Shown here one piece after another: positions 21,763 through 38,258 of a stretch of DNA of 45,351 nt. The translations under genes and the position numbers were made by a program. How positions within the stretch are numbered: position 1 is the stretch's first letter; every line of letters starts with the position of its first letter. Where the stretch lies: NCBI GenBank assembly GCA_903915035.1, contig CAIWRI010000134.1, positions 1-45,351 on the forward strand. The letters run 5' to 3'. The notes under the pieces are model-generated. The model did not search any database and was not told where the DNA came from. It was given only the letters and a program-made list of their open reading frames with translations. The stretch is from an uncultured Nitrosomonadales bacterium. Lineage in GTDB: Bacteria > Pseudomonadota > Gammaproteobacteria > Burkholderiales > Gallionellaceae.

Positions 21763-22377
21763 ATGGCATCAACCAAATACAGCATGTCCTTTACGACTGG
21801 CGGCCTACTCTCACAGGAATCGGAGAGGGTCGCACGTCTGTACCTGGAGCTTGGTGATTGGGTTCTTGTTCGTAATAGCGCCTTGGAAATGGGACTCATG
21901 CAGACGCGCATGCTAAGTTCTGCCAAGCGTATCTATCGAGAAGTATCCGCACGCCTTCAAACCTTAACCGATGAAGAAATCGAGATGCTGGTTAATGGTG
22001 GTGAACAGCAGCGTCCCCACCTGCTCTGGTTGGCGGTTTGCTGCCGATATTCATTTATCCGTGATTTTTTCGTTGAAATCCTTCGCGAGCGGTTTCTGAC
22101 CCTACGTCACGAAATTGCCAATGAAGACTTCGACACATTTTTTAATGCAAAATCCGAGTGGCATCATGAACTGAATACAATCACAACGGGCACGAGAACC
22201 AAGTTACGTCAGAATCTTTTTCGCATGTTGCGCGAGGCAGAATACATAAGCCTGTCCAATCGGATACAGCCTATGGTACTCACCCCACAGCTAGCTCAGA
22301 TGGTGTTGCGCAGAGGTGCCGATGCACTTTACCTTTATCCCACACTTGATTTCGAACCTAACCGGAGGGCGCAATAA
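21763..22377 (+). CDS. brxA: BREX protein BrxA (DUF1819)
   Basis: First gene of a type I BREX phage-resistance operon. BrxA is a small, mostly helical protein of the DUF1819 family, which has been reported to bind DNA. Residues 1-60 (SFTTGGLLSQESERVARLYL ... GLMQTRMLSSAKRIYREVSA) and PHLLWLAVCCRYSFIRDFFV match the family. Its 204 residues are typical. The stop TAA shares its last base with the brxB ATG. There is no BrxR-type WYL regulator upstream; that place is taken by the ABC-3C module. Confidence 0.92.
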   Translation: MASTKYSMSFTTGGLLSQESERVARLYLELGDWVLVRNSALEMGLMQTRMLSSAKRIYREVSARLQTLTDEEIEMLVNGGEQQRPHLLWLAVCCRYSFIRDFFVEILRERFLTLRHEIANEDFDTFFNAKSEWHHELNTITTGTRTKLRQNLFRMLREAEYISLSNRIQPMVLTPQLAQMVLRRGADALYLYPTLDFEPNRRAQ

Positions 22378-22985
22378 TGGTTGAATGGACAGCGCGTTCT
22401 TCGCAGGAAAAATTTCAGCATCTGTTAGCTGTCATCAGCAGCACTCGCTTCCTTAAAATGCAGAGTTTGAACAATGAAATTCCGTTCTACATCTGCCCGT
22501 ACAAACCGCAAGATGCCGTTGAAATGGAACGTCTTCAACAACAATTGAGAAATAAGCTAGACCAGTCTGGTATCCGTGTTCTGAATATCAATCTGTATGA
22601 TTTATCGATTGATCACCTGAAGAGCGAAGGCGATTGGGAATTTTATGTGCGCAATGAGCCGAGCATGCCCAAAGATGATCTGCTAAAAGAGTTACAGTCC
22701 ATGCTGGATGTTGAGTCCGTTATTATTCCTGCCATTTCGGCAAAAATGGCTGAGGATGAATTTGATGTGATGTTTATCTGTGGGGTTGGCGAGGTTTTTC
22801 CGTTTATTCGTTCACATAACGTATTGAATAACTTGCAAAAAGCAGCGAAACAGAAACCTACCGTGATGTTTTTTCCCGGTGAATATACCCATTCTCTTGA
22901 GGGTGGCGCGGCGCTTGAGCTGTTTGGTCGATTAAGAGATGACAAGTATTACCGTGCATTCAATATTGCCGATACGGCAATTTAA
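22377..22985 (+). CDS. brxB: BREX protein BrxB (DUF1788)
   Basis: A 202-residue DUF1788 protein found in nearly all type I BREX operons. Visible family features: RFLKMQSLNNEIPFYICPYK near the N-terminus, and the Rossmann-like C-terminal half EFDVMFICGVGEVFPFIRSH ... KPTVMFFPGEYT. Its biochemical role is not established. GGAGGG precedes the start, and it is coupled to brxA by a one-base stop/start overlap. Confidence 0.93.
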   Translation: MVEWTARSSQEKFQHLLAVISSTRFLKMQSLNNEIPFYICPYKPQDAVEMERLQQQLRNKLDQSGIRVLNINLYDLSIDHLKSEGDWEFYVRNEPSMPKDDLLKELQSMLDVESVIIPAISAKMAEDEFDVMFICGVGEVFPFIRSHNVLNNLQKAAKQKPTVMFFPGEYTHSLEGGAALELFGRLRDDKYYRAFNIADTAI

Positions 22986-23000
22986 AGCGAGAAAAACCTG

Positions 23001-26000
23001 ATGAATCTAATAGCGATTTTCAAAAAACCGGTAAATCGTACGATTGAAGGTGTGATCAAAGCCGATGACGAAGCAGGTCTGCGCGTTGAGCTTGAGGAAT
23101 ATGTTCTTACCAAAGAAGTTGAAAAACGTATTGAAGATTTCCTTTATGCCTACAATAAATATGAAGGTGCAAATGGTGTCTGGATATCGGGTTTCTTCGG
23201 TTCAGGTAAATCACATCTGCTCAAGATGCTGGCTTTGCTTCTTGAGAATCGTGCAATCGATGGTGTGCCGGCTTTGGATCTGTTTGTTGCCAAATGCGAT
23301 GACAACGAGGTGCTGCGCGCCGATTTGAAACGCGCCGCAGCCTTTCCATCAAAAAGCATTCTGTTCAATATCGATCAAAAAGCCGACGTCATCAGCAAGA
23401 CGCAGATTGATGCGCTGCTGGCTGTGTTCGTCAAAGTCTTCGATGAGTCATGCGGCTATTACGGCAAGCAGCCCTACATCGCGCAATTTGAGCGCGAACT
23501 TGAGCGTGAAGGCATGCTTGAGGGCTTCAAACAACATTTTGCTACGCTAGCCAAAAATGATTGGGATTGGGGAAGAGCGCGTCCGACACGGGTCGAAAGT
23601 TTCGTAGATCAAGCCTATAGCAAGATCACCGGACAGACCGTTGTTGGTGTGCTGGATAAGTTTCGCGCCGACTACCGTTTGTCGATTGAGGATTTTGCCA
23701 ATCAGGTGAAAGCGTATATTGATGCGCAAGCACATGGATTCCGGCTTAATTTCTTTGTTGATGAAGTGGGTCAGTACATCGCGGGGAACACCAAGCTGAT
23801 GACCAATCTGCAAACCATTGCGGAAAGTCTGGCTACGAAATGCAAGGGGCAGGCTTGGGTTATCGTCACGGCGCAAGAGGAAATGTCCAGCATCATTGGA
23901 GAAATGAGCACCAAAGAGAGTAATGACTTCACGAAAATTCAGGCGCGTTTTGCTAACCGCATGAAGCTCACCAGTGCGGACGTGGCTGAGGTTATCCAGA
24001 AGCGATTGCTGCTCAAGGATGATACGGGCATCGGTTTGTTGTCCGATGTGTATCATCTGCAATCGAATAACTTCAAGACCTTGTTTGATTTTGCTGATGG
24101 CTCGCAATCCTACAAAAATTTTAAGGATCGAGATCACTTCATTCATTGCTACCCGTTCATTCCTTACCAGTTTTCCCTGTTTCAAACGTCTATCCAAAGC
24201 TTGTCTATGCACAGTGGCTTTGAAGGAAAGCACAGTTCAGTGGGTGAGCGTTCCATGCTCGGGGTCTTTCAGCAAGTCGCGATTCAGATCGGCGAACATG
24301 AGGTAGGGCAACTCGCCACGTTCGATTTGATGTTCGAAGGGATACGCACGGCTCTCAAATCACATATTCAGAGAGCGATCATCCAGGCAGAAAATCACCT
24401 TGAGAGTCCTTTTGCCATCAAGGTGCTGAAGGCGCTTTTTCTGGTGAAATATGTAAAGGAATTCAAGCCCACGCTGCGGAATATGTGCGTACTGATGCTG
24501 GAGGGTTTCGATCAGGATATGTCGCAACTGCGCAAGCGCGTAGAGGATGCCTTAAATGTGCTGGAGCAACAAACCTATATTCAACGTAATGGTGAGTTCT
24601 ACGAGTACCTCACTGACGAAGAAAAGGACGTCGAGCAGGAAATTAAAAACACCGAGGTCGAAACGGCTGATGTGGCAGCTGAGCTGGATAAAATCATCTT
24701 TGACCACATAATCAAGAATCGAAAAATCCGCTTCGACACCAATGGACAGGACTATCCATACTCCCGTAAGCTGGATGATCGTCTGCAAGGTCGTGAATAC
24801 GAACTGGCCATTCATGTTGTCAGCCCTTTTCATGAGAATGTAGCCAGTGAAACGACGCTGCGCATGCAAAGCATGGGGCGTGATGAGCTGCTCGTCATCA
24901 TGCCGCAAGAAGACCGGCTAGTCCGCGACTTGTTGATGTACAAGCGTACTGAGAAGTACATCCGGCAAAATGTGTCGGTCACTCAGCAGGAGAATGTCAA
25001 ACGCATTCTGACAGACAAGGGCTTTCAGAATCAGGAACGTCATCGTGAATTACAGGCGATGTTGCAATCGCTGCTTGGTAAATCCAAGCTCATTATTTCC
25101 GGTGGTGACGTTGAGGTCAGCTCCGAGGATGCGCAATCACGCATTACGAAAGGTTTTCATGACCTGATCCAGCGTGTCTATCCGAATTTGCGGATGTTGC
25201 GCGGCTTTAATTACACCGAGAATGATGTTGGAAAATTCCTCAAACATGCTCAGGAAGGCTTGTTCGGCAACGATGGCACGTCACTCGCCGAGTCTGAACA
25301 GGAAATGCTTTCCTTCCTGCAAAGCAATAATCGTGGCGGAGTCAGAACTACCCTTAAGGGGCTGATTGAAAAATTTGAGCGCAAACCCTATGGATGGTAT
25401 TTCGCAGCGGTACTTTGTACCCTGGCGCACCTGTGTGCCAGAGGAAAGATCGAAGTTTGTATTGATGGTAATGTTCTGGAAGATGACGCACTGGAAAAAG
25501 CACTGCGCAATACGGCCGCTCATGGCAACGTAGTGCTTGAGCCTCAAGTCGACTTCACTGCCTCGCAGGTACGTGCGCTCAAAGAGTTTTATGCCGATTT
25601 CTTTGATACGCCCGCAGGATCGGGTGAGCCAAAGGCGCTCGGCAAGGAGTCTGAGGCTGCATTCAAACAGCTTGTGATTGATCTGAATGAATTGCTTGTG
25701 CAATCTGCGCAATACCCATTTTTGACGGCGCTTAAACCGGCAATCGAGACCCTTAAGGAAATTTCCGCAAAGCCTTATACCTGGCATCTCACCGAACTGA
25801 TCCGGCAGGAAAATGCACTATTGAACCTGAAAGAAAAGGTCAGCGATCCGATTCGCAAGTTCATGGCAGGGGCTCAGAAAGAAATTTTTAACGACACCAG
25901 AATATTCGTCCAGAGCCAGGAGCCCAATTTCGCCTATATCGAAGGGGATGAGGCAGTACAGATAACCGGTGTGCTCACTGATCCCGATTGCTATAAAGGC

Positions 26001-26552
26001 AATCGGATGCAACAGCTTAAAACGCTAGTCGATTCTCTACAGGGTAAAATCAACGCTCAAATCGCGGCTGAAATTGCAACGGCCACAACCTCTGTCGTCA
26101 TGTTGGAGCAACGTCTGCGCAATATGAACGAATTCGCGTTATTAAGCGCGGAGCAGCAAACTCAGATCACTCAGCCGTTTGTCGAGTTCGCTTCCAGGAT
26201 TGCACCGCAAAAACTGATCGCGGTGATCCGTGATTTGCATCGTCGTTTTGAAGAGGAAGGCTATTCGCGATTGTTGTCACAGCTGGGAAGTCTGTCGCGT
26301 CCTGTGCCTACACCACCAATAAAGCCGATTGAAACCGCGCCAGTACCAACCTCTTCTGGCACTCATCCCTTGAACCCGCCGGAGATTATTAAGCCAGCGG
26401 CTTCTAAGATTGATTACATCAGCAGTCGCAATATTCCTGTGGCGTTCGACAAGGCATGGCTGGCGGATGAAAACGATGTAGAAAATTACCTCGAATCCAT
26501 GCGTAAAGCCCTGCTCAAGGCGATTCGCGATGGTAAACGAGTCCAAATTTAA
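23001..26552 (+). CDS. brxC: BREX protein BrxC (P-loop ATPase)
   Basis: A large 1183-residue AAA-type ATPase essential in BREX. Walker A is WISGFFGSGKSHLLKML (K70) near the N-terminus; LNFFVDEVGQYIAGNTKLM supplies Walker B, followed by WVIVTAQEEM (sensor I). The remaining 800 residues carry helical and coiled-coil segments, including EEKDVEQEIKNTEVETADVA, and a proline-rich linker near residue 1100 (PVPTPPIKPIETAPVP). The C-terminal motif after the linker (ARNIPVAFDKAWL-like) is a common BrxC tail. Full length, no frameshift. The downstream gene starts after 10 bases. Confidence 0.95.
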   Translation: MNLIAIFKKPVNRTIEGVIKADDEAGLRVELEEYVLTKEVEKRIEDFLYAYNKYEGANGVWISGFFGSGKSHLLKMLALLLENRAIDGVPALDLFVAKCDDNEVLRADLKRAAAFPSKSILFNIDQKADVISKTQIDALLAVFVKVFDESCGYYGKQPYIAQFERELEREGMLEGFKQHFATLAKNDWDWGRARPTRVESFVDQAYSKITGQTVVGVLDKFRADYRLSIEDFANQVKAYIDAQAHGFRLNFFVDEVGQYIAGNTKLMTNLQTIAESLATKCKGQAWVIVTAQEEMSSIIGEMSTKESNDFTKIQARFANRMKLTSADVAEVIQKRLLLKDDTGIGLLSDVYHLQSNNFKTLFDFADGSQSYKNFKDRDHFIHCYPFIPYQFSLFQTSIQSLSMHSGFEGKHSSVGERSMLGVFQQVAIQIGEHEVGQLATFDLMFEGIRTALKSHIQRAIIQAENHLESPFAIKVLKALFLVKYVKEFKPTLRNMCVLMLEGFDQDMSQLRKRVEDALNVLEQQTYIQRNGEFYEYLTDEEKDVEQEIKNTEVETADVAAELDKIIFDHIIKNRKIRFDTNGQDYPYSRKLDDRLQGREYELAIHVVSPFHENVASETTLRMQSMGRDELLVIMPQEDRLVRDLLMYKRTEKYIRQNVSVTQQENVKRILTDKGFQNQERHRELQAMLQSLLGKSKLIISGGDVEVSSEDAQSRITKGFHDLIQRVYPNLRMLRGFNYTENDVGKFLKHAQEGLFGNDGTSLAESEQEMLSFLQSNNRGGVRTTLKGLIEKFERKPYGWYFAAVLCTLAHLCARGKIEVCIDGNVLEDDALEKALRNTAAHGNVVLEPQVDFTASQVRALKEFYADFFDTPAGSGEPKALGKESEAAFKQLVIDLNELLVQSAQYPFLTALKPAIETLKEISAKPYTWHLTELIRQENALLNLKEKVSDPIRKFMAGAQKEIFNDTRIFVQSQEPNFAYIEGDEAVQITGVLTDPDCYKGNRMQQLKTLVDSLQGKINAQIAAEIATATTSVVMLEQRLRNMNEFALLSAEQQTQITQPFVEFASRIAPQKLIAVIRDLHRRFEEEGYSRLLSQLGSLSRPVPTPPIKPIETAPVPTSSGTHPLNPPEIIKPAASKIDYISSRNIPVAFDKAWLADENDVENYLESMRKALLKAIRDGKRVQI

Positions 26553-26562
26553 GGGGCAATAA

Positions 26563-27624
26563 ATGAACAACATTATCACCCAGTTGCAACTGACCAATTT
26601 CACCAAGTTCAGTGATTTGACAATCGATTTTTCACCAAGGATAAATGTGATAATTGGTGAAAATAGCTCAGGAAAAACGCATCTTCTCAAAGCCGCCTAT
26701 GCACTTTGCACGGGGCGCAGCAGCTTTAAAAACGATGCCAAAATTGATGACGACGACCTGAGTAACGCTGTGACAGCCAAGCTACTCAAGGTATTCATGC
26801 CTCTAGATGGCAGGCTGGGGAATATACGGCGGCATGGTGCGGGCAACTCTGGTAATGCTCAGTTACAGGCTGAGTTCGCGTCAGACAAAAAGGTTCGCCT
26901 GAGTTTTCACACCAACTCAAAATCGGTTGTTATGCAAGATCGGACCGCCTACGCACAAATTCTCCCCGCATCGGTTTATATCCCGACCAAGGAAGTTCTG
27001 TCCATCATGGAAGGACTCCCCAGTCTGTACACAAAATTCGCTCTTTCCTTTGATCAAACCTACGCAGATATTTTTGCGTGGCTGGAATTGCCACCCGCTC
27101 GCCCAGAGCAAATTGTTGGCAGGACTCGATGGGCAATGGAAGAAATCGAGAAAAGGATAGGTGGTAGATTCATTTTTCACGGTGGTGGCCGCGTTACTTT
27201 CAAAGCTGGCGACGACGAGTATTCAGCGAATGACATGGCTGAAGGATTCCGCAAAGCAGGCATGTTGCTGCGTTTGTTAGAAACCACCGCCATTCAGCCT
27301 GGTATTTCTGGCCCTCTGTTTTGGGATGAGCCTGAAACCAACATGAATCCAAAGCTGATACGATTGCTTGTAGATATTGTGTTAGAAATGTCTCGCATGG
27401 ATCAACAAATTATTATCGCCACCCATGATTATGTGATGCTCAAATGGTTTGACCTGTGTGCGCAAAAAACAGATCAGATTCGCTTTCATACCTTACTTCA
27501 AAACGAATCTACTGGTGAAATTACTGTTGAAAGCGTTGACAGCTTTAGTGAGATTAGGCCAAACGCCATCTCCAATACGTACGCTGAGCTATATGACGAA
27601 GATGTGAAAAGGGCTTTGGGTTGA
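26563..27624 (+). CDS. AAA-family ATPase, BREX cargo
   Basis: A 353-residue ABC/OLD-like ATPase with N-terminal LQLTNFTKFSDLTIDF and Walker A GENSSGKT (residues 32-39), then Walker B FWDEPETNMNPK (D255, E256) and the switch histidine in IIIATHDYVMLKWF. No TOPRIM or other catalytic domain is fused. It lies between brxC and pglX, where core BREX operons have no gene, and only two bases separate it from the next gene, so the two form a pair. A sensor ATPase for the neighbouring putative nuclease is the simplest reading. It is not an obvious PARIS, Gabija or Septu ATPase by layout. Confidence 0.75.
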   Translation: MNNIITQLQLTNFTKFSDLTIDFSPRINVIIGENSSGKTHLLKAAYALCTGRSSFKNDAKIDDDDLSNAVTAKLLKVFMPLDGRLGNIRRHGAGNSGNAQLQAEFASDKKVRLSFHTNSKSVVMQDRTAYAQILPASVYIPTKEVLSIMEGLPSLYTKFALSFDQTYADIFAWLELPPARPEQIVGRTRWAMEEIEKRIGGRFIFHGGGRVTFKAGDDEYSANDMAEGFRKAGMLLRLLETTAIQPGISGPLFWDEPETNMNPKLIRLLVDIVLEMSRMDQQIIIATHDYVMLKWFDLCAQKTDQIRFHTLLQNESTGEITVESVDSFSEIRPNAISNTYAELYDEDVKRALG

Positions 27625-27626
27625 TT

Positions 27627-28172
27627 ATGCGTTTATATAAAGCTGAAGATAACGCAGATTTACAGTTTGCATTTCCTGATTGGCTTAATTGGGAAGAGCT
27701 CGATAAGCAAAATGTAAAGCTACCTGTAAAAATGAAGTTCGTCGATTTAGTGATCGAACGTGAAAAGGATGTACTTTTAATTGAAATTAAAGATCCATCA
27801 CACGCAAGCTCACCAGAGAAAGAGCGAGCATCATATTTTAAGCGACTTCAAGACAACTCCGTAGTTACTCAAGAGTTAACGCCTAAAGCCCGTGATTCCT
27901 ATACCTATCTGCATTTAATGGAAAAGGATACTAAAACTTTTAAATACATTGTATTAATAGGTTTAGATGCTTTTGATGAACAGGCTCAAAAAGCACTACT
28001 CGGTGGATTTAAAGATCGTCTACTCGCTGACATTCGATGTGAGTCTTTTGAACCGTGGAAGCGGCGGCATATTGAGGATTGCGTAGTGTTCTCTGTGGCA
28101 GGTTGGAACAAACAGTTCCCCGCTTGGCAAATTTCGCGACTCAGTAAATCAGCCCCCGCAGGAGCACAATAA
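27627..28172 (+). CDS. putative PD-(D/E)XK nuclease-like partner of the upstream ATPase
   Basis: A 181-residue protein I do not recognise as a named family. The strand pattern KFVDLVIEREKDVLLIEIKD gives D40, then E53-x-K55, the arrangement of PD-(D/E)XK nuclease active sites. The C-terminal half (TFKYIVLIGLDAFDEQAQKA ... RHIEDCVVFSVAGWNKQFPA) is compatible with the same fold. I start at ATG 27627 (MRLYKAEDN); the TTG at 27621 overlaps the upstream stop. TAA shares one base with the pglX start. The nuclease assignment is motif-based inference. Confidence 0.55.
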   Translation: MRLYKAEDNADLQFAFPDWLNWEELDKQNVKLPVKMKFVDLVIEREKDVLLIEIKDPSHASSPEKERASYFKRLQDNSVVTQELTPKARDSYTYLHLMEKDTKTFKYIVLIGLDAFDEQAQKALLGGFKDRLLADIRCESFEPWKRRHIEDCVVFSVAGWNKQFPAWQISRLSKSAPAGAQ

Positions 28173-30415
28173 TGGAAACTACAAAACTCCGCCGCTTTGC
28201 CCAATACGCACGTCGCTCCCTGATGGAGCAGGTCTCAACTAAACTGGGTTTTGTCTTGGCTGACGACAGTCCAGCACGCCGCGAAAATCCTGCGGCAGTA
28301 GCCGACTTGCAAAAACAAATCAGTGAGTCCAGCCAGGATCAGGTGGTTGAGAAGGTCGCTTACACATGGTTTAACCGTTTTTGCGCTTTGCGGTTCATGG
28401 ATATGAATGGCTACACGCGCATCCGTGTGGTCTCTCCTGTCGATGAAAGTCAGTTTCAGCCTGAAATCCTTGCAGAAGCCAAAGCAGGGCATATCGACGA
28501 GGAGATGGTGGCAGACTCTGTAAGTCAGCGCATCAGTGCCTTACTGTCGGGTAGTGTGGCAAGCCGCGATCCGCAGCAGGAAGCTTATCGACTGCTTGTC
28601 GTGGCGGCGTGTAACGATTTTCATCGCGCGATGCCTTATCTGTTTGAACGCATTTCCGACTATACCGAATTGCTCATGCCTGACGATCTGCTGTCCGGTA
28701 ATTCCATTCTCGCCTACACCCGCGAAGCGATGACGCCAGATGCCTGTCAGGACGTGGAAGTCATCGGTTGGCTCTACCAGTTCTATATCTCTGAAAAGAA
28801 AGACGAGGTATTTGAAGGGCTTAAGAAAAACAAGAAAATTACCCCTGAAAATATTCCTGCCGCCACCCAGTTATTTACACCGCACTGGATTGTGCGTTAT
28901 CTGGTCGAGAATTCGCTGGGCCGTCTGTGGATGCAGAATCATCCGCAATCAAGACTTGTGGAAAAAATGCCTTACTACATAAAACCAGTGGAAAGTGGGG
29001 AGTGGGAAGTGGGGAGTGGGCAGTGCGGTGCGGCAAATGAGCGGGAAGTTAACAGTGAGGAGAGTGATGATGTCGGTTTAGAATTATCGAGAATTGATCG
29101 TCTGGCAAAAGGCGATGGATCTGGTGGAACTGGTTTACCAGGCAACCAAGGGATTCCCAAAGGAGGAGCTGTACGGATTAACCAATCAAGTGTGCCGAGC
29201 AGCAGTATCGATTCCCTCCAACATAGCGGAAGGCCAAGCGCGGCGGTCGACAGCGGACTTCAAGAACTTTCTATCAATCGCGCAAGGCTCCAGAGCGGAA
29301 GTGGAAACGCAGATACTGATCTCACAACGTCTGGGTTACATATCTCAACAACAGGCCGATCAAATACTGATTCTGTCCGAGGAAATCAAACGAATGATCT
29401 ATGCTCTCACAGCGAAGCTGGTTTAACTTCCCACTCTTCACTTCCCACTTCCCACTTGAGAATTTCCTCTCCTGAGGAAATTCGAATCTGCGATCCCGCT
29501 TGTGGCTCTGGACACATGCTCACCTATGCCTTCGATCTGCTTTACGCAATCTATGAAGAGGTTGGCATTGACCCGAACGAGATTCCAGAGAAGATACTCA
29601 CGCACAATTTATTCGGTATCGAGATCGACGAGCGGGCCGGTGAACTGGCTGCCTTTGCCCTGACCATGAAGGCCCGCGCCAAACAACGCCGCTTTTTCAA
29701 TAAAGGCATTCGTCCAAATATCTGCGTGTTGCAGCGCGTGAAGATCGAACAGAGTGATCTGGATGCCTACATAGTTGCTGTGGGGCGCGATCTGTTCACC
29801 GCCAACTTGCGAACCTTACTGAGTCAGTTCGATGAAGCTGATAATTTTGGTTCGCTGATTCGCCCCGTACCGTTGGACTTCGCCGAGCTACGCCGAGTTA
29901 TTTCCGAAAAAGGCATCGGCGATGATTTGTTGCTGGAACATGTGCATCATGATGTGCTGCGAGTATTGGAACAGGCGGAATACCTGAGCCAGCGATATCA
30001 GGTCGTAGTGGCGAATCCGCCGTATATGGGTGGCAAGGGGATGAACGGGCGGCTGGGTGCTTGGGCTAAGGATAAATACCCGGACAGCAAATCTGATCTG
30101 TTCGCGATGTTCATCGAGCGCAATCTTGATCTCGTCGTTAAACAGGGTTCTGTCGGCATGATCACCATGCAAAGCTGGATGTTTCTGTCCTCCTATGAAA
30201 AATTGCGTTCCAATCTGCTCAACGACAAGACGCTGACTTCAATGGCGCATCTAGGCGCACACGCATTTGATAGCATTGGTGGAGAAGTGGTTTCCACAAC
30301 GGCTTTCGTTTTAGAAAATGCCCATTATCCTGAATATAAAGGGGCTTATATTCGTTTGGTTGATGGAAATTCTGAGGCTGAAAAAGAAGCGATTCTTAGG
30401 CGGGTTATTCTATGA
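28172..30415 (+). CDS. pglX: BREX methyltransferase PglX, N-terminal (catalytic) part
   Basis: PglX methylates host DNA to mark self in BREX. This 747-residue protein holds the whole N6-adenine methyltransferase core: motif I DPACGSGHMLTYAF (D441) and catalytic motif IV ANPPYMGG (N615-Y618). The frame ends with AYIRLVDGNSEAEKEAILRR and a short foreign tail VIL, at the point where intact PglX continues into YRASAADF. Residues of about 272-429 (VESGEWEVGSG ... SLPTSHL) are not PglX but the in-frame translation of a heptamer element inserted between KP and LRISSPEEIR. The stop overlaps the RT-nitrilase start (ATGA). Whether it works together with the C-terminal half is inference. Confidence 0.92.
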   Translation: METTKLRRFAQYARRSLMEQVSTKLGFVLADDSPARRENPAAVADLQKQISESSQDQVVEKVAYTWFNRFCALRFMDMNGYTRIRVVSPVDESQFQPEILAEAKAGHIDEEMVADSVSQRISALLSGSVASRDPQQEAYRLLVVAACNDFHRAMPYLFERISDYTELLMPDDLLSGNSILAYTREAMTPDACQDVEVIGWLYQFYISEKKDEVFEGLKKNKKITPENIPAATQLFTPHWIVRYLVENSLGRLWMQNHPQSRLVEKMPYYIKPVESGEWEVGSGQCGAANEREVNSEESDDVGLELSRIDRLAKGDGSGGTGLPGNQGIPKGGAVRINQSSVPSSSIDSLQHSGRPSAAVDSGLQELSINRARLQSGSGNADTDLTTSGLHISTTGRSNTDSVRGNQTNDLCSHSEAGLTSHSSLPTSHLRISSPEEIRICDPACGSGHMLTYAFDLLYAIYEEVGIDPNEIPEKILTHNLFGIEIDERAGELAAFALTMKARAKQRRFFNKGIRPNICVLQRVKIEQSDLDAYIVAVGRDLFTANLRTLLSQFDEADNFGSLIRPVPLDFAELRRVISEKGIGDDLLLEHVHHDVLRVLEQAEYLSQRYQVVVANPPYMGGKGMNGRLGAWAKDKYPDSKSDLFAMFIERNLDLVVKQGSVGMITMQSWMFLSSYEKLRSNLLNDKTLTSMAHLGAHAFDSIGGEVVSTTAFVLENAHYPEYKGAYIRLVDGNSEAEKEAILRRVIL
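28987..29459. mobile_element. heptamer-flanked IVS-like element inside pglX
   Basis: The left end has five AGTGNNN heptamers from 28987 (AGTGGAA, AGTGGGG, AGTGGGA, AGTGGGG, AGTGGGC); the right end has CACTCTT, CACTTCC, CACTTCC, CACTTGA to 29459. In between lies a gene for a four-helix-bundle protein of the 23S rRNA intervening-sequence family. The element is an insertion relative to PglX, because conserved PglX sequence resumes on both sides. The host frame is open through all 157 or so codons. No transposase and no target duplication could be recognised. Confidence 0.8.
29067..29426 (+). pseudogene. four-helix-bundle protein (23S rRNA IVS protein family), nonsense codon near start
   Basis: After an ideal AGGAG (29058-29062) the ATGATG at 29067 opens the frame MMSV, then TAG at 29079-29081, then NYRELIVWQKAMDLVELVYQ and RAAVSIPSNIAEGQARRS ... 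IAQGSRAEVETQILISQRLG, which is diagnostic for the S23/IVS family related to DGR Avd proteins. Family members normally read K-N-Y-R at the stop, so a Lys codon has mutated. Translation could restart at TTG 29094, giving 110 residues. It is read one base out of phase with pglX. Known members sit in 23S rRNA insertions flanked by inverted repeats; their function is unclear. Confidence 0.8.
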
Positions 30416-33381
30416 TCATAAATCTCGAAAACCTCGGTATGGCCTACCGTAAAGCGAAGGTGGATCTCTATTACTCGACTCACGCGTCACTACTGGCAAT
30501 CGCCGAATACGAAAGTGACCTTGCAAATAACCTACTGGCTTTACTAATCAAACTGAATGGGGATGATGAAGGCTGGATAAAGGAAGACGCCTTTTTGGGT
30601 GGATGGACTTATGCCCCCAAATCTATTACTACGACAATAGAAGGCAAGTCAAATGGAAATGGGCTGATTTTTTCTTCTCCAGCAGACGAGTGGCGCCACA
30701 TTTGTGAAGTGGAATCCTCCGAAAAGCCAACGGCTGAGTTTCGTTTGATGGCAACGAATAGTCTTAACTTTCACGTCATGTCAACCTTATGGATGATGAA
30801 TATTGGCCATAAATACGATGCAAAATTAACTGATTGTGCCTATGGCAATCGACTGCGTCGAAACCAAGATGGTGATATCAACCTACTGTCACTCGGCTCA
30901 TTTTCACCCTACCTGAAACCTTTTCGCACATGGCGTGATAACGGGATTAACGCCATGAGCACGGCGCTGGCGGCGGATAAACATGTTGTTGCACTTACTG
31001 CCGATGTCAGCTCTTTTTACCATGAGTTGAATTCGAACTTCATGCTTGATGACCAATTTAATGCATTGCTTGACATTGAGCTGTCTCCAGTAGAACAAAA
31101 GCTTCACCGTTTGTTCATTACTGCACTGCAAGCTTGGGCACAAAAGACACCTCTTAAAAAAGGACTCCCAGTGGGTTTGCCGGCTTCTGCGGTCGTGGCT
31201 AATATGGCATTGATTGAGCTGGATCGCTTGGTAGAACAGCAGGTGGCACCTTTGTATTACGGACGTTATGTGGACGACATTCTGTTGGTAATGGAAAACG
31301 GTGCCAAGTTTCAAACTCCTGCCGAGCTTTGGCAATGGTTGTTCGATCGTTCAAGTGGAAAGCTTGGGTGGGTAGATGACAGCCATAAAAATGAAATTAC
31401 GTTTCAGCCAAACTATCTGAGTGATAGCCAGATACGTTTTGCCAACGCAAAGAACAAAGTTTTTTTGTTGGTGGGAGAAACAGGAAAAACATTGGTGGAT
31501 GCAATTGCGCACCAGATTTATGAGCGAGCCAGTGAATGGCGTGCTTTGCCGAGCTTACCATTTTCAGCCAAGCATGTTGCGACTGATCTAGTGGCGGCCA
31601 CGCAAAGCGATGGCGAAGCAGCCGACAACCTGCGCAAGACTGATGCGATGACCATGCGCAGAGCCGGATTTGCGATCAAACTGCGTGACTTTGAAGCTTA
31701 CGAACGCGATTTACATCCTGAAGCCTGGAAAGACCATCGCCATGCATTTTTTCGCGCCTTTGAACAGCATGTTCTCGTGCTGCCACATTTTTTTGAACTG
31801 GCTATTTATTTGCCTCGTGTGATCCGGTTGGCGACTGCGTGTGAAGATTTCGAGCACTTGCGTAAGATCATTGATGGGCTTAAGTATATCTGCCACAGTG
31901 TAGGTGAAAACTGTACGGCACGCATTAAGTCCTGTTCAGAAATCCATTCTTCAGAAGTGGTAGTTGAGCAGTGGAAAACCCAGCTTTTTAAAACCTTACA
32001 TGACAGTATCATTGCCTCATTTCCGCCGAAGTTGTCAAAAACGGGGAAAGGTGCATGGCAGGCGCATATTCTCAACTCTGGTCTTAAGATTGGTATGCTC
32101 TCGATAAAGGAAATTCAGGCGGGACAGGCATGGCTGTTTTCTTATGATTTGGCACACATGCCGTTCCGCTTTATCGGCCTTCCCAAAGAAATGATCGCAC
32201 AGCGCGGCATTCCAAATCGTAAAACGGTGAAATGTTTTGATAATGCTAAGCAATTTTTACCGTCAGCTATCATTGACGGTATCACGACGCTAGCAGCTTG
32301 GACAAAGTTTAAGAAAGATTTGCCTTGTGGTCTGCTGTTTGCAACCCGCCCTTTTGGCTTGGCTGAACTATTCGTCGTGGCTAAAGACCCCTTTGCAGAT
32401 GCCGCTTATAAACTAATGCAAGCAGTGGTTTTAGCGCTGCGTGGATTCAACCTTAACGAGAAAACACCACGGTTTAATAAGGGAATTTTGCATATTCCAG
32501 ATGGCGCTTTTCAGCCGAAGCTCGCCATTGCGGTTTCAAGCTGGCAAACACAGTACAGCACATGGGTGGCAGCGGTGACGAGATCGCCTGATCCTGACAT
32601 TGGTCGCTATGCTCGATTGGCGCGGCTGGTGAATAGTGTTATTTCGCAGCCCAAAGGCACACGTTATTTCATTCTGCCCGAATTGGCCTTACCTGCACAC
32701 TGGTTCATGCGTATTGCGCAAAAATTGCAAGGCCGGGGCATCTCGCTGATCACTGGAATTGAGTACCTGCACGCAGGCAAGGGGCGGGTGCGCAATCAGT
32801 TGTGGGCTGCGTTGACGCACGATGGGCTGGGTTTCCCTTCCATGATGATTTACCGTCAGGACAAACAACGTCCTGCGCTACATGAAGAGCAGGAGTTACA
32901 ACGTCTTGCTGGTTTGGAAATGAAACCAGATCCAGGTAAGGCATGGAAAATCCCGCCAGTCATACAGCATGGAAAGTTTCGCTTTGCCATGCTGGTATGT
33001 AGTGAGTTAACTAATATCAGCTATCGCGCAGCCTTGCGTGGCGAGGTGGATGCCTTGTTTGTGCCGGAATGGAATAAAGACACTGAATCATTTAATGCAC
33101 TCGTGGAATCCGCTGCGCTGGATATTCATGCCTACGTTATTCAATGCAATGACCGTCAATACGGAGACAGCCGTATCCGGGCACCCTATAAAAACAGTTG
33201 GGAACGTGATGTGCTGCGCGTCAAAGGTGGTATTGACGACTACTGCGTGACGGGAAAAGTTGACATTCAGTTACTGCGTCAATTTCAGTCCAGCTTCCGT
33301 TCGCCCAGCGGGCCATTCAAGCCGGTGCCGGATGGCTTTGAGATGAAGTTCGACAGAAAAGTGCTGCCCTGCGGAGAGTGA
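30412..33381 (+). CDS. RT-nitrilase fusion (defence-associated RT, DRT type 1/UG1-like)
   Basis: A 989-residue protein with an N-terminal reverse transcriptase and C-terminal nitrilase-like domain. RT motif A is ALTADVSSFYHEL (D198), motif B GLPVGLPASAVVANMALIEL, and motif C YYGRYVDDILLVME (Y286-V-D-D289), so both catalytic aspartates are present. The nitrilase triad appears conserved: E757 in ILPELALP, K818 in YRQDKQRP and C863 in MLVCSELTN. This is the architecture of the UG1/DRT type 1 anti-phage RTs. The gene begins in the four-base overlap with the pglX N-part stop and ends two bases before the pglX C-part ATG, so it sits exactly within pglX. Confidence 0.9.
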   Translation: MIINLENLGMAYRKAKVDLYYSTHASLLAIAEYESDLANNLLALLIKLNGDDEGWIKEDAFLGGWTYAPKSITTTIEGKSNGNGLIFSSPADEWRHICEVESSEKPTAEFRLMATNSLNFHVMSTLWMMNIGHKYDAKLTDCAYGNRLRRNQDGDINLLSLGSFSPYLKPFRTWRDNGINAMSTALAADKHVVALTADVSSFYHELNSNFMLDDQFNALLDIELSPVEQKLHRLFITALQAWAQKTPLKKGLPVGLPASAVVANMALIELDRLVEQQVAPLYYGRYVDDILLVMENGAKFQTPAELWQWLFDRSSGKLGWVDDSHKNEITFQPNYLSDSQIRFANAKNKVFLLVGETGKTLVDAIAHQIYERASEWRALPSLPFSAKHVATDLVAATQSDGEAADNLRKTDAMTMRRAGFAIKLRDFEAYERDLHPEAWKDHRHAFFRAFEQHVLVLPHFFELAIYLPRVIRLATACEDFEHLRKIIDGLKYICHSVGENCTARIKSCSEIHSSEVVVEQWKTQLFKTLHDSIIASFPPKLSKTGKGAWQAHILNSGLKIGMLSIKEIQAGQAWLFSYDLAHMPFRFIGLPKEMIAQRGIPNRKTVKCFDNAKQFLPSAIIDGITTLAAWTKFKKDLPCGLLFATRPFGLAELFVVAKDPFADAAYKLMQAVVLALRGFNLNEKTPRFNKGILHIPDGAFQPKLAIAVSSWQTQYSTWVAAVTRSPDPDIGRYARLARLVNSVISQPKGTRYFILPELALPAHWFMRIAQKLQGRGISLITGIEYLHAGKGRVRNQLWAALTHDGLGFPSMMIYRQDKQRPALHEEQELQRLAGLEMKPDPGKAWKIPPVIQHGKFRFAMLVCSELTNISYRAALRGEVDALFVPEWNKDTESFNALVESAALDIHAYVIQCNDRQYGDSRIRAPYKNSWERDVLRVKGGIDDYCVTGKVDIQLLRQFQSSFRSPSGPFKPVPDGFEMKFDRKVLPCGE

Positions 33382-33382
33382 G

Positions 33383-35371
33383 ATGAGTGATATGAAAAAT
33401 GTCTTAAACAGTTCTGATCAAATGCCGGAGTCAAGTGAGTTGATAAATCGTGAATCCAAGGACGGTGCGGAGAAATATTTCTTTCGCGCTTCTGCCGCTG
33501 ATTTTAGGAAAATTTCAGGCAGCCCGATTGCATATTGGGTCAGTGAAAAAATTCGAAGTATTTTCGAGGTTGAACCTTCTGTGGGGGATGTGGTTGAGGC
33601 TAAGCAAGGATTAGGGACAGGGCAGGACGCGAAGTTTCTCCATTTTTTCTGGGAAGTTTCCCGTGCAGAAATGGGATTGGATTTTCCTAATGTAAGCGAT
33701 GCCTGGACTAGTAATAAAAAATGGCTTCCCTTGAATAAGGGAGGATCGTTTAGAAAATGGTATGGCAATCGTGAATACTTAATTGCTTTCGATAAAGAGA
33801 ATAGAGATATTCTGAAAAAGTTGGGAAACCATCTACCGTCAGAGCATCTTTACTGCAAGCCATTTATTTCATGGTCAGACATTACTTCTGCAAACAACTC
33901 GTTCAGAAAATTTGAGCACGGATTCTTATTTTCCAATACTGGGCATTGTGCGTTCCCGAAAAATTCCACAGAGGAATCCATACTTCTCAGCTACTGCAAT
34001 AATAAATTCGTCAACATGATGACGAAGATTCTGAATCCAACAATTCACTTTCATGTTGGGTATTTCAATTTGCTCCCATACCCATCTAAGATTACTGAGC
34101 GAAAAGAAAGGATTCAGAACCTAACAGAAATCCTAATTGCGAATGAAAAAATTGATTGGAACTCTTTCGAAACTTCTTGGGACTTCGAACAATCGGTGTT
34201 GCTACTAAGGGAAAGTCACCAATCCACAATAAGTGCGACCTACGACACGCTCAGTGCCAAGTGGTTCGAGACAACGCTAAAAATGCAAAGTCTCGAAGAA
34301 GAAAACAACCGTATCTTCATCGACGCCTACGGTCTGCAAGACGAACTGACGCCTGATGTGCCTTTGGAAGAAATCACGTTAACTTGTAATCCATATTATC
34401 GTTATGGAAAGAAAGCGGTGATTTCTTCAGTGAAAAGTGGAGAGTTGAAAGTGAAAAGTAATGATGTAGATGCTTCTCACTCGCCACTCGCTACTAACCA
34501 CTTTCCACTCAACGAGGAGCTCGAAGAGCGACTAGTTGCAGACACGATGCGCGAATTTATCTCCTACGCGGTCGGTTGCATGTTCGGTCGCTACAGCCTC
34601 GATAAACCCGGCCTGATTCTCGCCAACCAAGGCGAAACGGTTGCGGACTATGTCCGCAAAGTGGAAAGTGGAAAGTTGGAAGTGGAAAGTAATGGTGCTG
34701 ATGCTTCCCACTGTTCTTCACTTCCCACTTCTCACTGTTCTTCAACTTCCCAGTTATCCTTCGTCCCCGACGAGGACAATGTGATCCCCATACTGGATGG
34801 AGACTGGTTTACCGATGATATCGCGGAGCGCTTCCGCGCCTTCCTGCGCGTAACCTTCGGCGATGAGAACTACGAGGAAAACCTCCGCTTCATTGAGGAT
34901 GCGCTAGGCAAGAAGGGTAAGCCGCTGCCGATCCGCGATTACTTCCTCAAAGAATTTTACACCGACCACGTCAAACGCTATAAAAAGCGCCCGATCTACT
35001 GGCTGTTCAGCAGTCCCAAGGGCAGTTTTAACGCACTGATCTACCTGCACCGTTATCGCCCGGATACGGTAAGTGTGGTGCTAAACGATTACCTGCGTGA
35101 TTTCAATAGCAAGTTGACTGCTCGCAAGAGTCATTTGGAACACGTCAGCGTAAGCGGCAATGCGTCGGCGGGTGAAAAAACCAAAGCACTGAAGGATATC
35201 GAGAATCTTAAAAAAATCCTGGTCGAGCTGGCAGATTATGAGCGCGATGTACTGTACCCCTTGGCAACACGCCAACTTGAAATCGACCTCGATGATGGCG
35301 TGAAGCATAATTACGGACTGTTCGGCAGTGCATTGAAAAAGATTGTCGGGCTAGATGCGGCTGAGGAATAA
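33383..35371 (+). CDS. pglX: BREX methyltransferase PglX, C-terminal (target recognition) part
   Basis: Starts with about 30 residues that look like a new leader (MSDMKNVLNSSDQMPESSEL), then resumes PglX at YFFRASAADFRKISGSPIAYW, the target-recognition and C-terminal region, and ends with the usual PglX tail HNYGLFGSALKKIVGLDA. It has 662 residues and no methyltransferase motifs. CGGAGAG lies ideally before the ATG, so it can be translated on its own. Two further heptamer elements are translated in-frame (SVKSGELKVKSN ... and KVESGKLEVESN ...). The split resembles the HsdM/HsdS division of type I R-M enzymes; function in trans is inference. Confidence 0.9.
   Translation: MSDMKNVLNSSDQMPESSELINRESKDGAEKYFFRASAADFRKISGSPIAYWVSEKIRSIFEVEPSVGDVVEAKQGLGTGQDAKFLHFFWEVSRAEMGLDFPNVSDAWTSNKKWLPLNKGGSFRKWYGNREYLIAFDKENRDILKKLGNHLPSEHLYCKPFISWSDITSANNSFRKFEHGFLFSNTGHCAFPKNSTEESILLSYCNNKFVNMMTKILNPTIHFHVGYFNLLPYPSKITERKERIQNLTEILIANEKIDWNSFETSWDFEQSVLLLRESHQSTISATYDTLSAKWFETTLKMQSLEEENNRIFIDAYGLQDELTPDVPLEEITLTCNPYYRYGKKAVISSVKSGELKVKSNDVDASHSPLATNHFPLNEELEERLVADTMREFISYAVGCMFGRYSLDKPGLILANQGETVADYVRKVESGKLEVESNGADASHCSSLPTSHCSSTSQLSFVPDEDNVIPILDGDWFTDDIAERFRAFLRVTFGDENYEENLRFIEDALGKKGKPLPIRDYFLKEFYTDHVKRYKKRPIYWLFSSPKGSFNALIYLHRYRPDTVSVVLNDYLRDFNSKLTARKSHLEHVSVSGNASAGEKTKALKDIENLKKILVELADYERDVLYPLATRQLEIDLDDGVKHNYGLFGSALKKIVGLDAAEE
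34429..34512. repeat. 84-bp heptamer element, gene-less, in pglX C-part
   Basis: Five left heptamers (AGTGAAA, AGTGGAG, AGTTGAA, AGTGAAA, AGTAATG), a 14-base core, and five right heptamers (CACTCGC twice, TACTAAC, CACTTTC, CACTCAA). 84 is a multiple of three, so the host frame is preserved as 28 extra codons. The junction AGTAATGATGT matches the start-codon region of the gene-bearing copy in the first pglX half (AGTGATGATGT), so this looks like an internal-deletion derivative. Confidence 0.82.
34660..34752. repeat. about 93-bp heptamer element, gene-less, in pglX C-part
   Basis: Left heptamers AGTGGAA, AGTGGAA, AGTTGGA, AGTGGAA, AGTAATG; right side CACTGTT, CTT, CACTTCC, CACTTCT, CACTGTT and a degenerate end near 34752. 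The core GATGCTTC before the right array is shared with the 84-bp copy 150 bases upstream. The host frame stays open. Confidence 0.8.
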
Positions 35372-35374
35372 CCC

Positions 35375-36829
35375 ATGAGCTTTATTCTGGAAACCCTATT
35401 ACAACAAAACGAAGGCAAGACACTGGAGTTTAAGCGTGATTTGTCTTCGCCCAAGCCCCTGTTAAAAACACTGGTGGCCTTTGCCAATACAGCCGGTGGT
35501 CGTTTAGTGATTGGTGTGACCGACGATCATCAACTTGTCGGGGTTGATGATCCTCTGACTGAAGAGGAACGTATCTGCAACCTGATTTCCGATGGAATTT
35601 CGCCCCGGTTAGTACCCAATGTGGAAATGATCACGCTTGAAGGTAAAACCTTGTTGGTGATTGAGGTTTATCTGAGCAATTCACGTCCCCATTGGTTGAA
35701 GGCGCAAGGTGCTGAGTTGGGGGTTTATGTCCGGCTGGGTTCCACCAATCGGCAGGCTGATCGTGAGCTGATCGCCGAATTGCAGCGTTCAGTCGAGGGC
35801 ATTGCTTATGATGAAATGCCGATGCCGGAACTTTCTGTCGATGAACTGGATTTAACCATCGCGCAAACATTGTTCGGCCATACTCGTTTGTTGGATGAGC
35901 AAGCTTTGCTCACCTTGAGATTACTCACGGATTATCAGGGGAGGCGGGTACCGACTAAGGGAGCAGTTTTGCTTTTTGGCAAGCGGCGCACCTTTCACTT
36001 TCCAGATGCGTGGATACAGTGCGGACGTTTTTTTGGCACTGAAAAAATAGATATTTTTGACCACATTGATATCAATGCCCCGTTGCCAACAGCCGTGGAT
36101 GAGGTCATGCTGTTTTTGAAGAAACATGCGTTTCGCGGTGCTGACATGTCAGAGGTTCGGCGCAAAGATGTCTGGAGTATTCCACTCGGAATTTTGCGCG
36201 AAGCCGTCATCAATGCCATTGTTCATGCTGATTATTCCCAGCGCGGCTCACCGATTCGGGTGGTTTTTTTGGATGATCGCATTGAAATTGAAAATCCCGG
36301 ACTGTTCCTGCCCGGATTAACCTTGGAAGACATCAAGCAAGGTACTTCTAAAATTCGTAACACCGTGATTGTTCGCGTTTTTAGAGAGTTGAATTTAATC
36401 GAGCAGTGGGGCACGGGAGTGCGGCGTATTTTTACTGAGGCACAAGCCCTTGGGCTTCCCGAACCTCAACTTATCGAGGTGGGAATGCGGGTGCGTTTCA
36501 TTATTCCATTATTGGAGCCGATATCGATTCGAAGCGTTCAGAAGTTGGTCAATGAACAAGTCGAAGCACAAGTCGAGGCACAAGTCGAAGCACAAGTCGA
36601 TATTGACATTCTTATCGCCTGTGCCGGCAGACCGTTATCATCGGCGGAAATTTCCAGCGTTTTAGGTCACAAGCAGCTGAGTGGAAATTTGCGTCAAGCG
36701 CTACCACGGTTAAGAAAAGTCGGGCTACTTGAATACACGATTCCAGACAAGCCAAATAGCCGTTTACAGAAGTACCGGTTATCATCGAAAGGGCGTGAAT
36801 TGATTAGCAGGTCTGGCAGGAAAGATTAA
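35375..36829 (+). CDS. AlbA_2/Schlafen-domain ATP-binding protein, BREX cargo
   Basis: The N-terminal AlbA_2 (Schlafen-like) nucleic-acid-binding domain shows EGKTLEFKRDLSSPKPLLKT and LVAFANTAGGRLVIGVTDD (residues 13-50). A HATPase_c_4-type domain follows (REAVINAIVHADYSQRGSPI, IEIENPGLFLPGLTLEDIKQ), as in RecG-like 'ATP-dependent helicase' annotations that are not true helicases. A winged-helix segment forms the C-terminus (LSSAEISSVLGHKQLSGNLR). A linker of VEAQ repeats joins the parts. It has 484 residues. Such proteins are frequent accessory genes beside PglX, and three bases separate it from pglX. Its role is probably regulatory or defensive, unproven. Confidence 0.85.
   Translation: MSFILETLLQQNEGKTLEFKRDLSSPKPLLKTLVAFANTAGGRLVIGVTDDHQLVGVDDPLTEEERICNLISDGISPRLVPNVEMITLEGKTLLVIEVYLSNSRPHWLKAQGAELGVYVRLGSTNRQADRELIAELQRSVEGIAYDEMPMPELSVDELDLTIAQTLFGHTRLLDEQALLTLRLLTDYQGRRVPTKGAVLLFGKRRTFHFPDAWIQCGRFFGTEKIDIFDHIDINAPLPTAVDEVMLFLKKHAFRGADMSEVRRKDVWSIPLGILREAVINAIVHADYSQRGSPIRVVFLDDRIEIENPGLFLPGLTLEDIKQGTSKIRNTVIVRVFRELNLIEQWGTGVRRIFTEAQALGLPEPQLIEVGMRVRFIIPLLEPISIRSVQKLVNEQVEAQVEAQVEAQVDIDILIACAGRPLSSAEISSVLGHKQLSGNLRQALPRLRKVGLLEYTIPDKPNSRLQKYRLSSKGRELISRSGRKD
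36557..36600 (+). repeat. 12-bp coding tandem repeat
   Basis: Units of CAAGTCGARGCA occur at 36557, 36569 and 36581, followed by a partial fourth unit to 36600. They encode (Q-V-E-A)n, a short flexible or coiled linker between the ATPase-like and winged-helix parts. The copy number is likely to vary between strains by slippage. Confidence 0.88.
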
Positions 36830-36983
36830 ATTGACCGGTCACCCTATCAGATGAAATCGGGGTGACGCCGTCCTCACTATTGAAATTAATGAGAATGCGG
36901 GGTGCGGCGTCCCCCCAATCAGGCTGGTCATGGAATACGGATCTTGAATAATATGTGGCAATACGTGAGTTGGAGTGCTAACG
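36830..36983. other. 154-base gap with nested hairpins
   Basis: GTCACCC (36838-36844) pairs with GGGTGAC (36860-36866), and GACGCCG (36864-36870) pairs with CGGCGTC (36905-36911); the two stems compete for shared bases. It is the largest gap inside the defence operon. No T-tract follows the first stem, so it is not a plain terminator; attenuation or an internal start for the Septu-pglZ-brxL part are possible but unproven. Confidence 0.45.
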
Positions 36984-38258
36984 ATGAAAATTAAATCCCT
37001 GAACCTGACCAATTTTCGAGGTGCGGCTGACTTGCAGCTGAGCTTCGATGATAGGCTCAATGTGTTTTTCGGTGTCAATGGTGCTGGCAAATCCACAGTG
37101 CTGGATGCGCTTGCCCTGATGCTTTCCTGGGCGATGAGTCGTATTCGTCATCCAGGATCATCCGGGCGTCCTATAGCAGAAGAGGATATAGCTAACGGAA
37201 AATCGAGTGCAGTAATCGATGTTGTCTGTTCTACTGAAAGCGGGCAATTTGAATGGAAGTTATCCAAAAGTAAGCCGGGCTATGTTGCTGAGGAAAAAAG
37301 CAATTTTAGCGCGCTTGCAGAATACGCAAAGTCGATTCAAGCCCGGATTGTTGAAACTGAAGCACAATGCAACATTCCCTTGCTGGTACATTATCCGGTG
37401 AATCGTGCTGTGCTGGATATTCCATTACGAATCAATGGGAAGCATCGCTTTAACCTGCTCTCGGCGCACGAAGATGCATTGAGTGGCGGCGCTAACTTCC
37501 GTACATTCTTTGAATGGTTTAGAAAACGTGAAGATTTGGAAAATGAAAACCGTAAATATCAAGATGATTTGATTAAGCCTGATGACTATTGCTATCCAGA
37601 TCCTCAACTGGAGGCAGTTCGTCGCGCGCTTTCGCAGTTCCTGCCTGAGTTTTCTAATCTTACAGTGCGCCGCAACCCCTTGCGTATGGAAGTGGAAAAG
37701 CAAGGGAGGCGACTTTCCGTCAATCAGTTGTCTGATGGCGAAAAGTGCATGATCGCCCTGATCGGTGATCTGGCCAGACGACTGGCCATTGCTAATCCGA
37801 CTCTGGCAGATCCCTTGCAGGGTAGTGGTGTCGTGCTGATCGACGAGATTGACCTGCATCTGCACCCCAAGTGGCAGCGCCTCGTCGTTCCTGGTTTGCT
37901 GGAAGTTTTTTCCGGCTGCCAATTTGTCATTTCAACTCACTCACCTCATGTCATCACGCATGTGCAGCCCGAATCCCTGTATCTGCTCCGTCAGACACCG
38001 AAAGGAATTGAAGCTGAGAAGCCGCGTGAATCCTATGGTAAAAATGTAGATCGTATTCTTGAAGATTTGATGGGGATGGATACGACCAGACCAATTTTGG
38101 TAGATGCCGAGCTGCGTACGGTGTTTCAAACGATAGACAATGGCGAGTTGGATTCAGCAAGAAAGTTGATCGAGGCGCTCAGAAAGTCTATCGGAAATGA
38201 TCCTGAACTCGTAAAGGCGGACGTATTAATCCGCCGTAAAGAGATCCTCGGCAAATGA
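36984..38258 (+). CDS. ptuA: Septu ATPase PtuA
   Basis: A 424-residue ABC-type ATPase: LNLTNFRGAADLQLSFDD, Walker A GVNGAGKS (30-37), signature QLSDGEKCMIALIGDL, Walker B GVVLIDEIDLHLHPKWQ, switch FVISTHSPHVITHV. With an adjacent HNH protein this is the two-gene Septu anti-phage system. I start at ATG 36984, preceded by TTGGAG; GTG 36975 lies in the same frame. The stop overlaps ptuB by ATGA. Septu is known as a stand-alone system; here it is embedded in a BREX operon. Confidence 0.85.
   Translation: MKIKSLNLTNFRGAADLQLSFDDRLNVFFGVNGAGKSTVLDALALMLSWAMSRIRHPGSSGRPIAEEDIANGKSSAVIDVVCSTESGQFEWKLSKSKPGYVAEEKSNFSALAEYAKSIQARIVETEAQCNIPLLVHYPVNRAVLDIPLRINGKHRFNLLSAHEDALSGGANFRTFFEWFRKREDLENENRKYQDDLIKPDDYCYPDPQLEAVRRALSQFLPEFSNLTVRRNPLRMEVEKQGRRLSVNQLSDGEKCMIALIGDLARRLAIANPTLADPLQGSGVVLIDEIDLHLHPKWQRLVVPGLLEVFSGCQFVISTHSPHVITHVQPESLYLLRQTPKGIEAEKPRESYGKNVDRILEDLMGMDTTRPILVDAELRTVFQTIDNGELDSARKLIEALRKSIGNDPELVKADVLIRRKEILGK

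Follow-up and report, generated by a model that had tools for sequence, protein, structure and literature searches.

An S23/IVS-type element with inverted heptamer arms lies in an open host frame within the BREX-1 methylase gene pglX

Introduction

Two kinds of insertion in bacterial genes are already known that bear on the locus described here, the IVSs of rRNA genes and the Rickettsia palindromic elements (RPEs) of protein genes. IVS/S23 elements have been known from rRNA genes for decades and, to our knowledge, have no known function, and RPEs are about 150 bp long and are not known to contain a gene in a second frame. In the 23S rRNA IVS of Coxiella, which RNase III excises, tandem heptamers stand ahead of the S23 ORF (PMC4990558), and RPEs are inserted in frame in protein genes and translated with their host (reviewed in PMC10969869). 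Heptameric repeats are also described from Xanthomonas, Nostoc and Beggiatoaceae; according to the accessible portions of these reports they are mostly intergenic and, in Xanthomonas, often form close inverted pairs (PMC4692102, PMC4679880).

Here we analyse a stretch of 45,351 nucleotides from an uncultured Nitrosomonadales bacterium of the family Gallionellaceae (contig CAIWRI010000134.1; hereafter the window), in which an S23 gene between heptamer arrays lies inside a protein-coding gene, pglX. No report of S23 inside pglX was found in the open-licence literature, and the open literature searched yielded nothing on S23 in protein genes with dual-frame maintenance, on its concentration in pglX or on inverted period-7 arms as its general feature.

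Results

A BREX-1 locus with a split pglX

Profile and PADLOC matches identified a BREX-1 locus in the window, comprising brxA (21763-22377), brxB (22377-22985), brxC (23001-26552), pglX in two parts, pglZ (38845-41382) and brxL (41397-43445). The N-terminal part of pglX (28172-30415, forward strand; 747 aa including the insert) matches NF033452 BREX_1_MTaseX at 5e-227 and is a single continuous ORF, open across the insert, whose 3' end overlaps the start of a reverse transcriptase (RT) gene; the C-terminal part (33383-35371, forward strand; 662 aa) matches NF033452 at 2.6e-198 over profile positions 639-1209. Both the NF033452 match and the BREX gene neighbourhood identify the host as BREX-1 PglX, and the BrxX structures 9ewz and 8c45 of the PDB match the N-terminal part on either side of the insert. 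Between the two parts lies RT_UG5-nitrilase (DRT), a defence-type reverse transcriptase with a nitrilase domain (30412-33381, forward strand; PADLOC PDLC03780 E=0; PF00078). The RT gene start overlaps the stop of the N-terminal part and its end abuts the C-terminal part, as if translationally coupled, and the break separates the methylase domain from the remainder of the protein. Other defence genes are nested in the BREX operon, namely a HEC-02A/B-like pair between brxC and pglX (26563-28172) and Septu ptuA/ptuB ahead of pglZ (36975-38890), and a weak pAgo-like match was seen at 35375-36829.

The insert, its arms and its interrupted S23 gene

To place the insert, the N-terminal part was aligned with six uninserted ones among its orthologues (L182-L187, 59-75% identical, or about 62-75% when only the N-terminal parts are compared with that of the window) and with inserted ones (L040, L055, L056, L060 and L061). 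The insert occupies 28988-29455 on the forward strand, 156 host codons at a position that we term site A, between YYIKP and LRISSPEEIRICDPACGSGH, so that its borders fall after KP (nt 28987) and before LRIS (nt 29456). The array-free orthologues read YYIKPEEPETDFLRINSPEEIKICDPACGSGH at this point and, in place of the 156 residues, have a native linker of only 7 (EEPETDF and similar), and the 156 codons are therefore an insertion; the counterparts of its flanks in E. coli BrxX (9ewz) are residues 286 and 303. The alignment, which the preliminary description had proposed, thus bears out its central claim that an IVS-type element has been inserted in pglX.

The upstream arm (28987-29025, forward strand), detected by TRF and in the sequence itself, consists of 5.5 heptamers (AGTGGAA, AGTGGGG, AGTGGGA, AGTGGGG, AGTGGGC and AGTG), and these AGTGGRN units contain no stop in any frame. 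Inverted ACTTCCC-type heptamers make up the downstream arm (29426-29457, reverse strand; TRF and RNA fold), which pairs with the upstream one: as RNA the two fold into a single long stem that closes a loop containing S23 (z=-3.5; the copy at L039 reached z -4.6), and so strong a stem could invite RNase III.

The gene in the loop (29067-29426, forward strand), identified by profile and translation, encodes an S23/IVS four-helix bundle and is a clear member of PF05635 (E=2.9e-41; 140 bits against a cut-off of 33.8; profile positions 1-105 of 106). It is preceded, 4 nt before its ATG at 29067, by a Shine-Dalgarno-like GAGGAG (29057-29062, forward strand), differs from pglX by one base in its reading phase and has an interrupting TAG at 29079-29081, codon 5 from ATG 29067 (codon 4 from ATG 29070). 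The flanking arrays, the phase offset, the TAG at codon 5 and the open host frame had all been reported in the preliminary description and were found again here, with the arrays inverted and the frame open for 156 codons against the approximately 157 claimed.

The matching position is a Gln codon in L047 and L056, and the TAG is likely to stem from a CAG->TAG change. A candidate in which the TAG had opened the host frame itself (AAG->TAG, removing a TAA) was dropped, because relatives with a comparable start carry CAG; CAG->TAG is the simpler change and leaves host openness unaffected. The S23 of the window has probably been newly lost by this TAG while the host frame was kept, a combination that fits a dispensable passenger. 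Broken S23 genes elsewhere in the window's bacterial family (G000:C138, G149, G071, G083, G074 and G095) are interrupted mostly by TAG, not TAA or TGA, and CAG->TAG would be a simple explanation for this TAG-rich decay.

Embedded copies occupy three sites of PglX

We then scanned about 85,000 genomes and considered the 80 closest S23 relatives, which come from many phyla and were chosen by similarity to the window copy. Besides that copy, 19 of the 80 lie inside a long host ORF, all in the same frame, and the host ORF usually continues for hundreds of codons in either direction from S23. The hosts are BREX-1 PglX in 17 cases (15 called by NCBIfam profile, L038 and L039 by a PglX match on both sides) and other DNA methylases (N6_N4_Mtase, PF01555) in 2. 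When embedding was instead defined independently of the frame, by PglX sequence flanking S23, 15 loci were obtained, and in all 15 the S23 gene was in sense orientation and the host frame open.

The PglX-embedded copies come from many phyla and occupy three sites: site A in the window, L040, L047, L055, L056, L060 and L061; site B, between VRKV and PDEDNVIP, in L037, L038, L039, L041, L043, L045, L069 and L077; and site C, after the first methylase motif, in L054, L057 and L093. Two further S23 genes lie near pglX, one at the brxC/pglX junction (L046) and one after pglX (L081). At site C, L054 and L057 are 92% identical in the upstream PglX sequence, 66% in S23 and 48% in the downstream PglX sequence, and the element at this mosaic junction may mark a point at which methylase halves are exchanged by recombination.

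The embedded hosts are mostly MAG sequences; that of L039, however, belongs to a named strain, Oligosphaera ethanolica DSM 24202, and is part of a 5.7 Mb contig not labelled as a MAG, which speaks against an assembly artefact. Among 398 Pseudomonadota genomes, 15 had a PglX match and only that of the window carried S23 inside it, so the embedded state is uncommon. Plasmid and phage collections contained S23 relatives, none of them shown inside a methylase; viral contigs gave 3 loci, and a DNA-level search of plasmids with the insert gave nothing useful.

Inverted period-7 arms are a general feature of S23 genes

Inverted period-7 arms surround 70 of the 80 S23 genes, as against 2 of 226 control ORFs, and period 7 was present at 28 of 31 S23 genes from the window's bacterial family. 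The unit differs between elements (AGTGGNN is the commonest, with AGGGGNN, AGTAGGC, AGGATTC and others), and the two arms of any one element match. Copies that are not embedded lie mostly between co-directional genes, with about 52 of 57 upstream neighbours co-directional (binomial P 2e-4 against an assumed background of 0.7), and these neighbours are a mix of housekeeping genes and some defence genes.

At least 10 changes of embedding state are forced on the S23 tree, which is poorly resolved, and of three pairs compared at 4-fold sites, two have a less diverged S23 than host (P=0.0001 and 0.004; the third not significant). Together these comparisons suggest repeated entry into genes; as several of the copies at sites A and B may be co-inherited with pglX, the independent insertions are perhaps only five (three PglX sites and two other methylases). 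The distribution of the element and the lower S23 divergence in some pairs likewise lead us to infer that it is mobile.

Heptamer palindromes without S23

The C-terminal part of pglX contains two heptamer palindromes in frame and without S23, both on the forward strand, one at 34429-34510 (VKSGELKVKSNDVDASHSPLATNHFPL) and one at 34658-34752 (ADYVRKV..PDEDNVIP). The latter occupies site B, the place where eight other bacteria have the S23 element. The two share 53 nt at 85%; the idea that this shared core is a genome-wide MITE was rejected, these being the only two full matches in the genome. Other PglX proteins in the window's bacterial family have short in-frame heptamer inserts at yet other loops.

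In-frame heptamer palindromes also occur in two other genes of the same genome (L173, G000:C94:1299-1400; L177, G000:C99:4948-4979), whose hosts were judged by eye to be an RmlB-like and a P-loop kinase-like ORF. Paired arrays of (GAGTGGT)n/(TTCCCAC)n at 14181-14339, intergenic and without S23, stand just before an apparent ribosomal-protein operon (rpsF/rplI-type) and are one of many such cases in the genome (244 pattern hits).

Host-frame stops are depleted across the class

The host frame is read from the last base of each S23 codon and the first two of the next, so we asked how often it would be open given the S23 protein. For the window copy it is open in about 10% of synonymous codon permutations of S23 (P about 0.10). 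The preliminary estimate that chance openness is below 1 in 1000 is therefore wrong for this copy, and the improbability holds for the class. Across 113 S23 genes (the closest 80, copies from the window's bacterial family and genome, and the window), the host frame is stop-free in 28, against 2.65 expected, and has 383 stops against 569 expected, whereas the third frame shows no deficit (743 against 734). In a control of 347 windows from neighbouring genes, stops in the host-type frame were at 0.88 of expectation and 24 of 347 windows were free of them, against 15 expected, so codon-pair bias explains only a little of the openness. The 20 embedded copies, including that of the window, have 0 host-frame stops against 53.9 expected, openness being part of the definition of embedding. 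S23 copies outside ORFs have 0.74 of the expected stops, below the control, and some of them may have passed through coding contexts earlier. Judged by these sequence statistics, selection on the overlapping frame is weakly indicated by the window copy alone and strongly by the class.

S23 is conserved as a protein, the host-frame peptide is not

Close pairs of embedded copies made it possible to compare the frames. Between L039 and L041, changes at the first, second and third S23 codon positions number 2, 3 and 28, and identity is 0.96 for S23 against 0.75 for the host-frame peptide and 0.75 for the third frame; between L037 and L039 the changes are 6, 8 and 43, and the identities 0.91, 0.60 and 0.58. 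As the changes fall mostly at third S23 positions, it is the S23 protein that has been conserved, and all that the host frame needs is to be free of stops. In the PglX flanks, changes show an excess at third positions. In most of the 19 further embedded copies, S23 has an ATG of its own preceded by a Shine-Dalgarno-like motif. In an AlphaFold model of the window's N-terminal part, residues 274-426 have a pLDDT of about 20 and the conserved core on both sides about 80-96, and BrxX/PglX are the best structural matches of the predicted fold; the insert is thus predicted to be disordered and the PglX fold to be retained.

Discussion

What we consider the most probable account, and hold with good though incomplete confidence, is that the insert is a widespread S23/IVS-type element which the host reads through as a linker and whose S23 is made separately. 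It starts from what the loci contain: an insertion bounded by inverted arms, the same frame chosen each time, depletion of stops, a conserved S23, and several sites and phyla. The element would insert, in sense orientation, into transcription units, and copies inside genes would persist only where the host ribosome can pass straight through; in PglX and a few other DNA methylases it occupies loops or linkers. Translation of the host would proceed through the arms and then through S23 in the sole alternative frame that can be kept stop-free, yielding a disordered linker of about 150 residues, and S23 would be translated from its own internal start. Heptamer arms encode the same peptide in all three frames, and the phase could thus be adapted by gaining or losing a unit. 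Given a conserved S23 and a host-frame peptide that shows no constraint and is predicted to be disordered, the likeliest outcome is translation across the whole insert, which would form a floppy linker. Between selection on the PglX frame through the insert, with tolerance at the protein level, and removal of the insert, both considered in the preliminary description, the stop depletion of the class, the conserved S23 and the predicted disorder support the former. We infer further that the complete PglX protein is produced and functional, and that the beneficiary of S23 is the element and not BREX.

The reverse assignment, in which S23 is a working BREX accessory encoded within pglX so that its supply is tied to the methylase, with the arms as a regulatory hairpin, appears unlikely to us, but it is the rival that survives best. 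It would account for the 17 of 19 in-gene copies in pglX and the two S23 genes at pglX junctions, for purifying selection on S23 in embedded copies and for its own Shine-Dalgarno motif and ATG. It fits poorly with insertion at three different PglX sites and in other methylases, with the unrelated housekeeping genes that most S23 genes adjoin and with the rarity of S23 among PglX carriers; moreover, the window copy keeps an open host frame without an intact S23, and palindromes without S23 occur at the same site.

Defence methylases are known phase-variable genes, and the arrays might make pglX one of them, with 7-bp slippage shifting the frame and turning the methylase off and on while S23 is a passenger. 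The unit length is indeed no multiple of 3, and the number of heptamers upstream of the IVS ORF differs among Coxiella strains (PMC4990558). However, short, imperfect arms such as these (IR scores 9-26) slow slippage, all loci examined are in the ON frame, and neither the conservation of S23 nor the inversion of the arms would be explained, so that we regard this account as improbable.

Less probable still is removal of the insert from pglX mRNA, by RNase III cutting and ligation or by splicing, in the manner of 23S rRNA IVSs. The long closing stem with S23 in its loop (z -3.5 and -4.6) and the excision of the Coxiella IVS by RNase III (PMC4990558) speak for it, but an excised insert would need no stop-free frame, yet every embedded copy is open, and the cut known from IVSs breaks the RNA into pieces, so that an mRNA would be destroyed. 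Least credible is that openness is a by-product of chance or codon bias in a decaying pseudogene, for although P is about 0.10 for the window copy alone and an RT gene interrupts its pglX, which also holds a broken S23, the stop statistics of the class, the 15 of 15 open loci with PglX on both sides of S23, the third-position excess in the host flanks and the in-frame position of all three window inserts contradict it.

As seen here, S23 elements are bounded by inverted period-7 arrays and dispersed across bacteria, with in-gene copies concentrated in defence methylases, where they would be a new source of BREX variation. The clear signature of selection on the overlapping frame makes them a testable case of an unspliced gene within a gene, and a tractable one, being carried by a named strain and not just by metagenome bins. 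Because S23 overlaps a longer ORF, standard annotation is expected to hide it. Going further, one might tentatively see here a distinct class of gene-in-gene mobile element, removed from neither RNA nor protein, with its own gene in one frame, an always-open junk linker in the other and frame-neutral heptamer arms as adapters, which would repeatedly invade the DNA methyltransferases of anti-phage defence, with BREX pglX foremost among them, and spread with these hosts between phyla; this broader proposal is possible, and we hold it with clearly less confidence than the linker reading itself.

Among known systems, the 23S rRNA IVS with an S23 ORF of Coxiella and Leptospira (PMC4990558) shares PF05635 with the present element, as well as inverted ends that form a stem with the ORF in its loop, as the arms and fold of the window insert do (z -3.5). 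It differs in its host, which here is not a 23S rRNA gene but a protein-coding gene with an open frame and no sign of excision, BREX pglX in many phyla. For the heptamer arrays of Xanthomonas, Nostoc and Beggiatoaceae, the accessible portions of the reports make no link to S23 genes (PMC4692102, PMC4679880). Inteins and group I/II introns are also nested in host genes and survive because the host product is preserved, but they are removed at the protein or RNA level, whereas nothing indicates removal here, the nested gene lies in a different frame, and Pfam and NCBIfam scans showed no intein domain. RPEs resemble the element in their in-frame insertion in protein genes, to judge from the frames, which are open in 20 of 20 embedded copies and in 15 of 15 under the independent definition; it differs from RPEs, which are not known to have a separate gene, in carrying a conserved S23 gene that overlaps the host frame, and its arms are period-7 arrays. 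The palindromes without S23 (34429-34510 and 34658-34752; L173 and L177) work more like RPEs.
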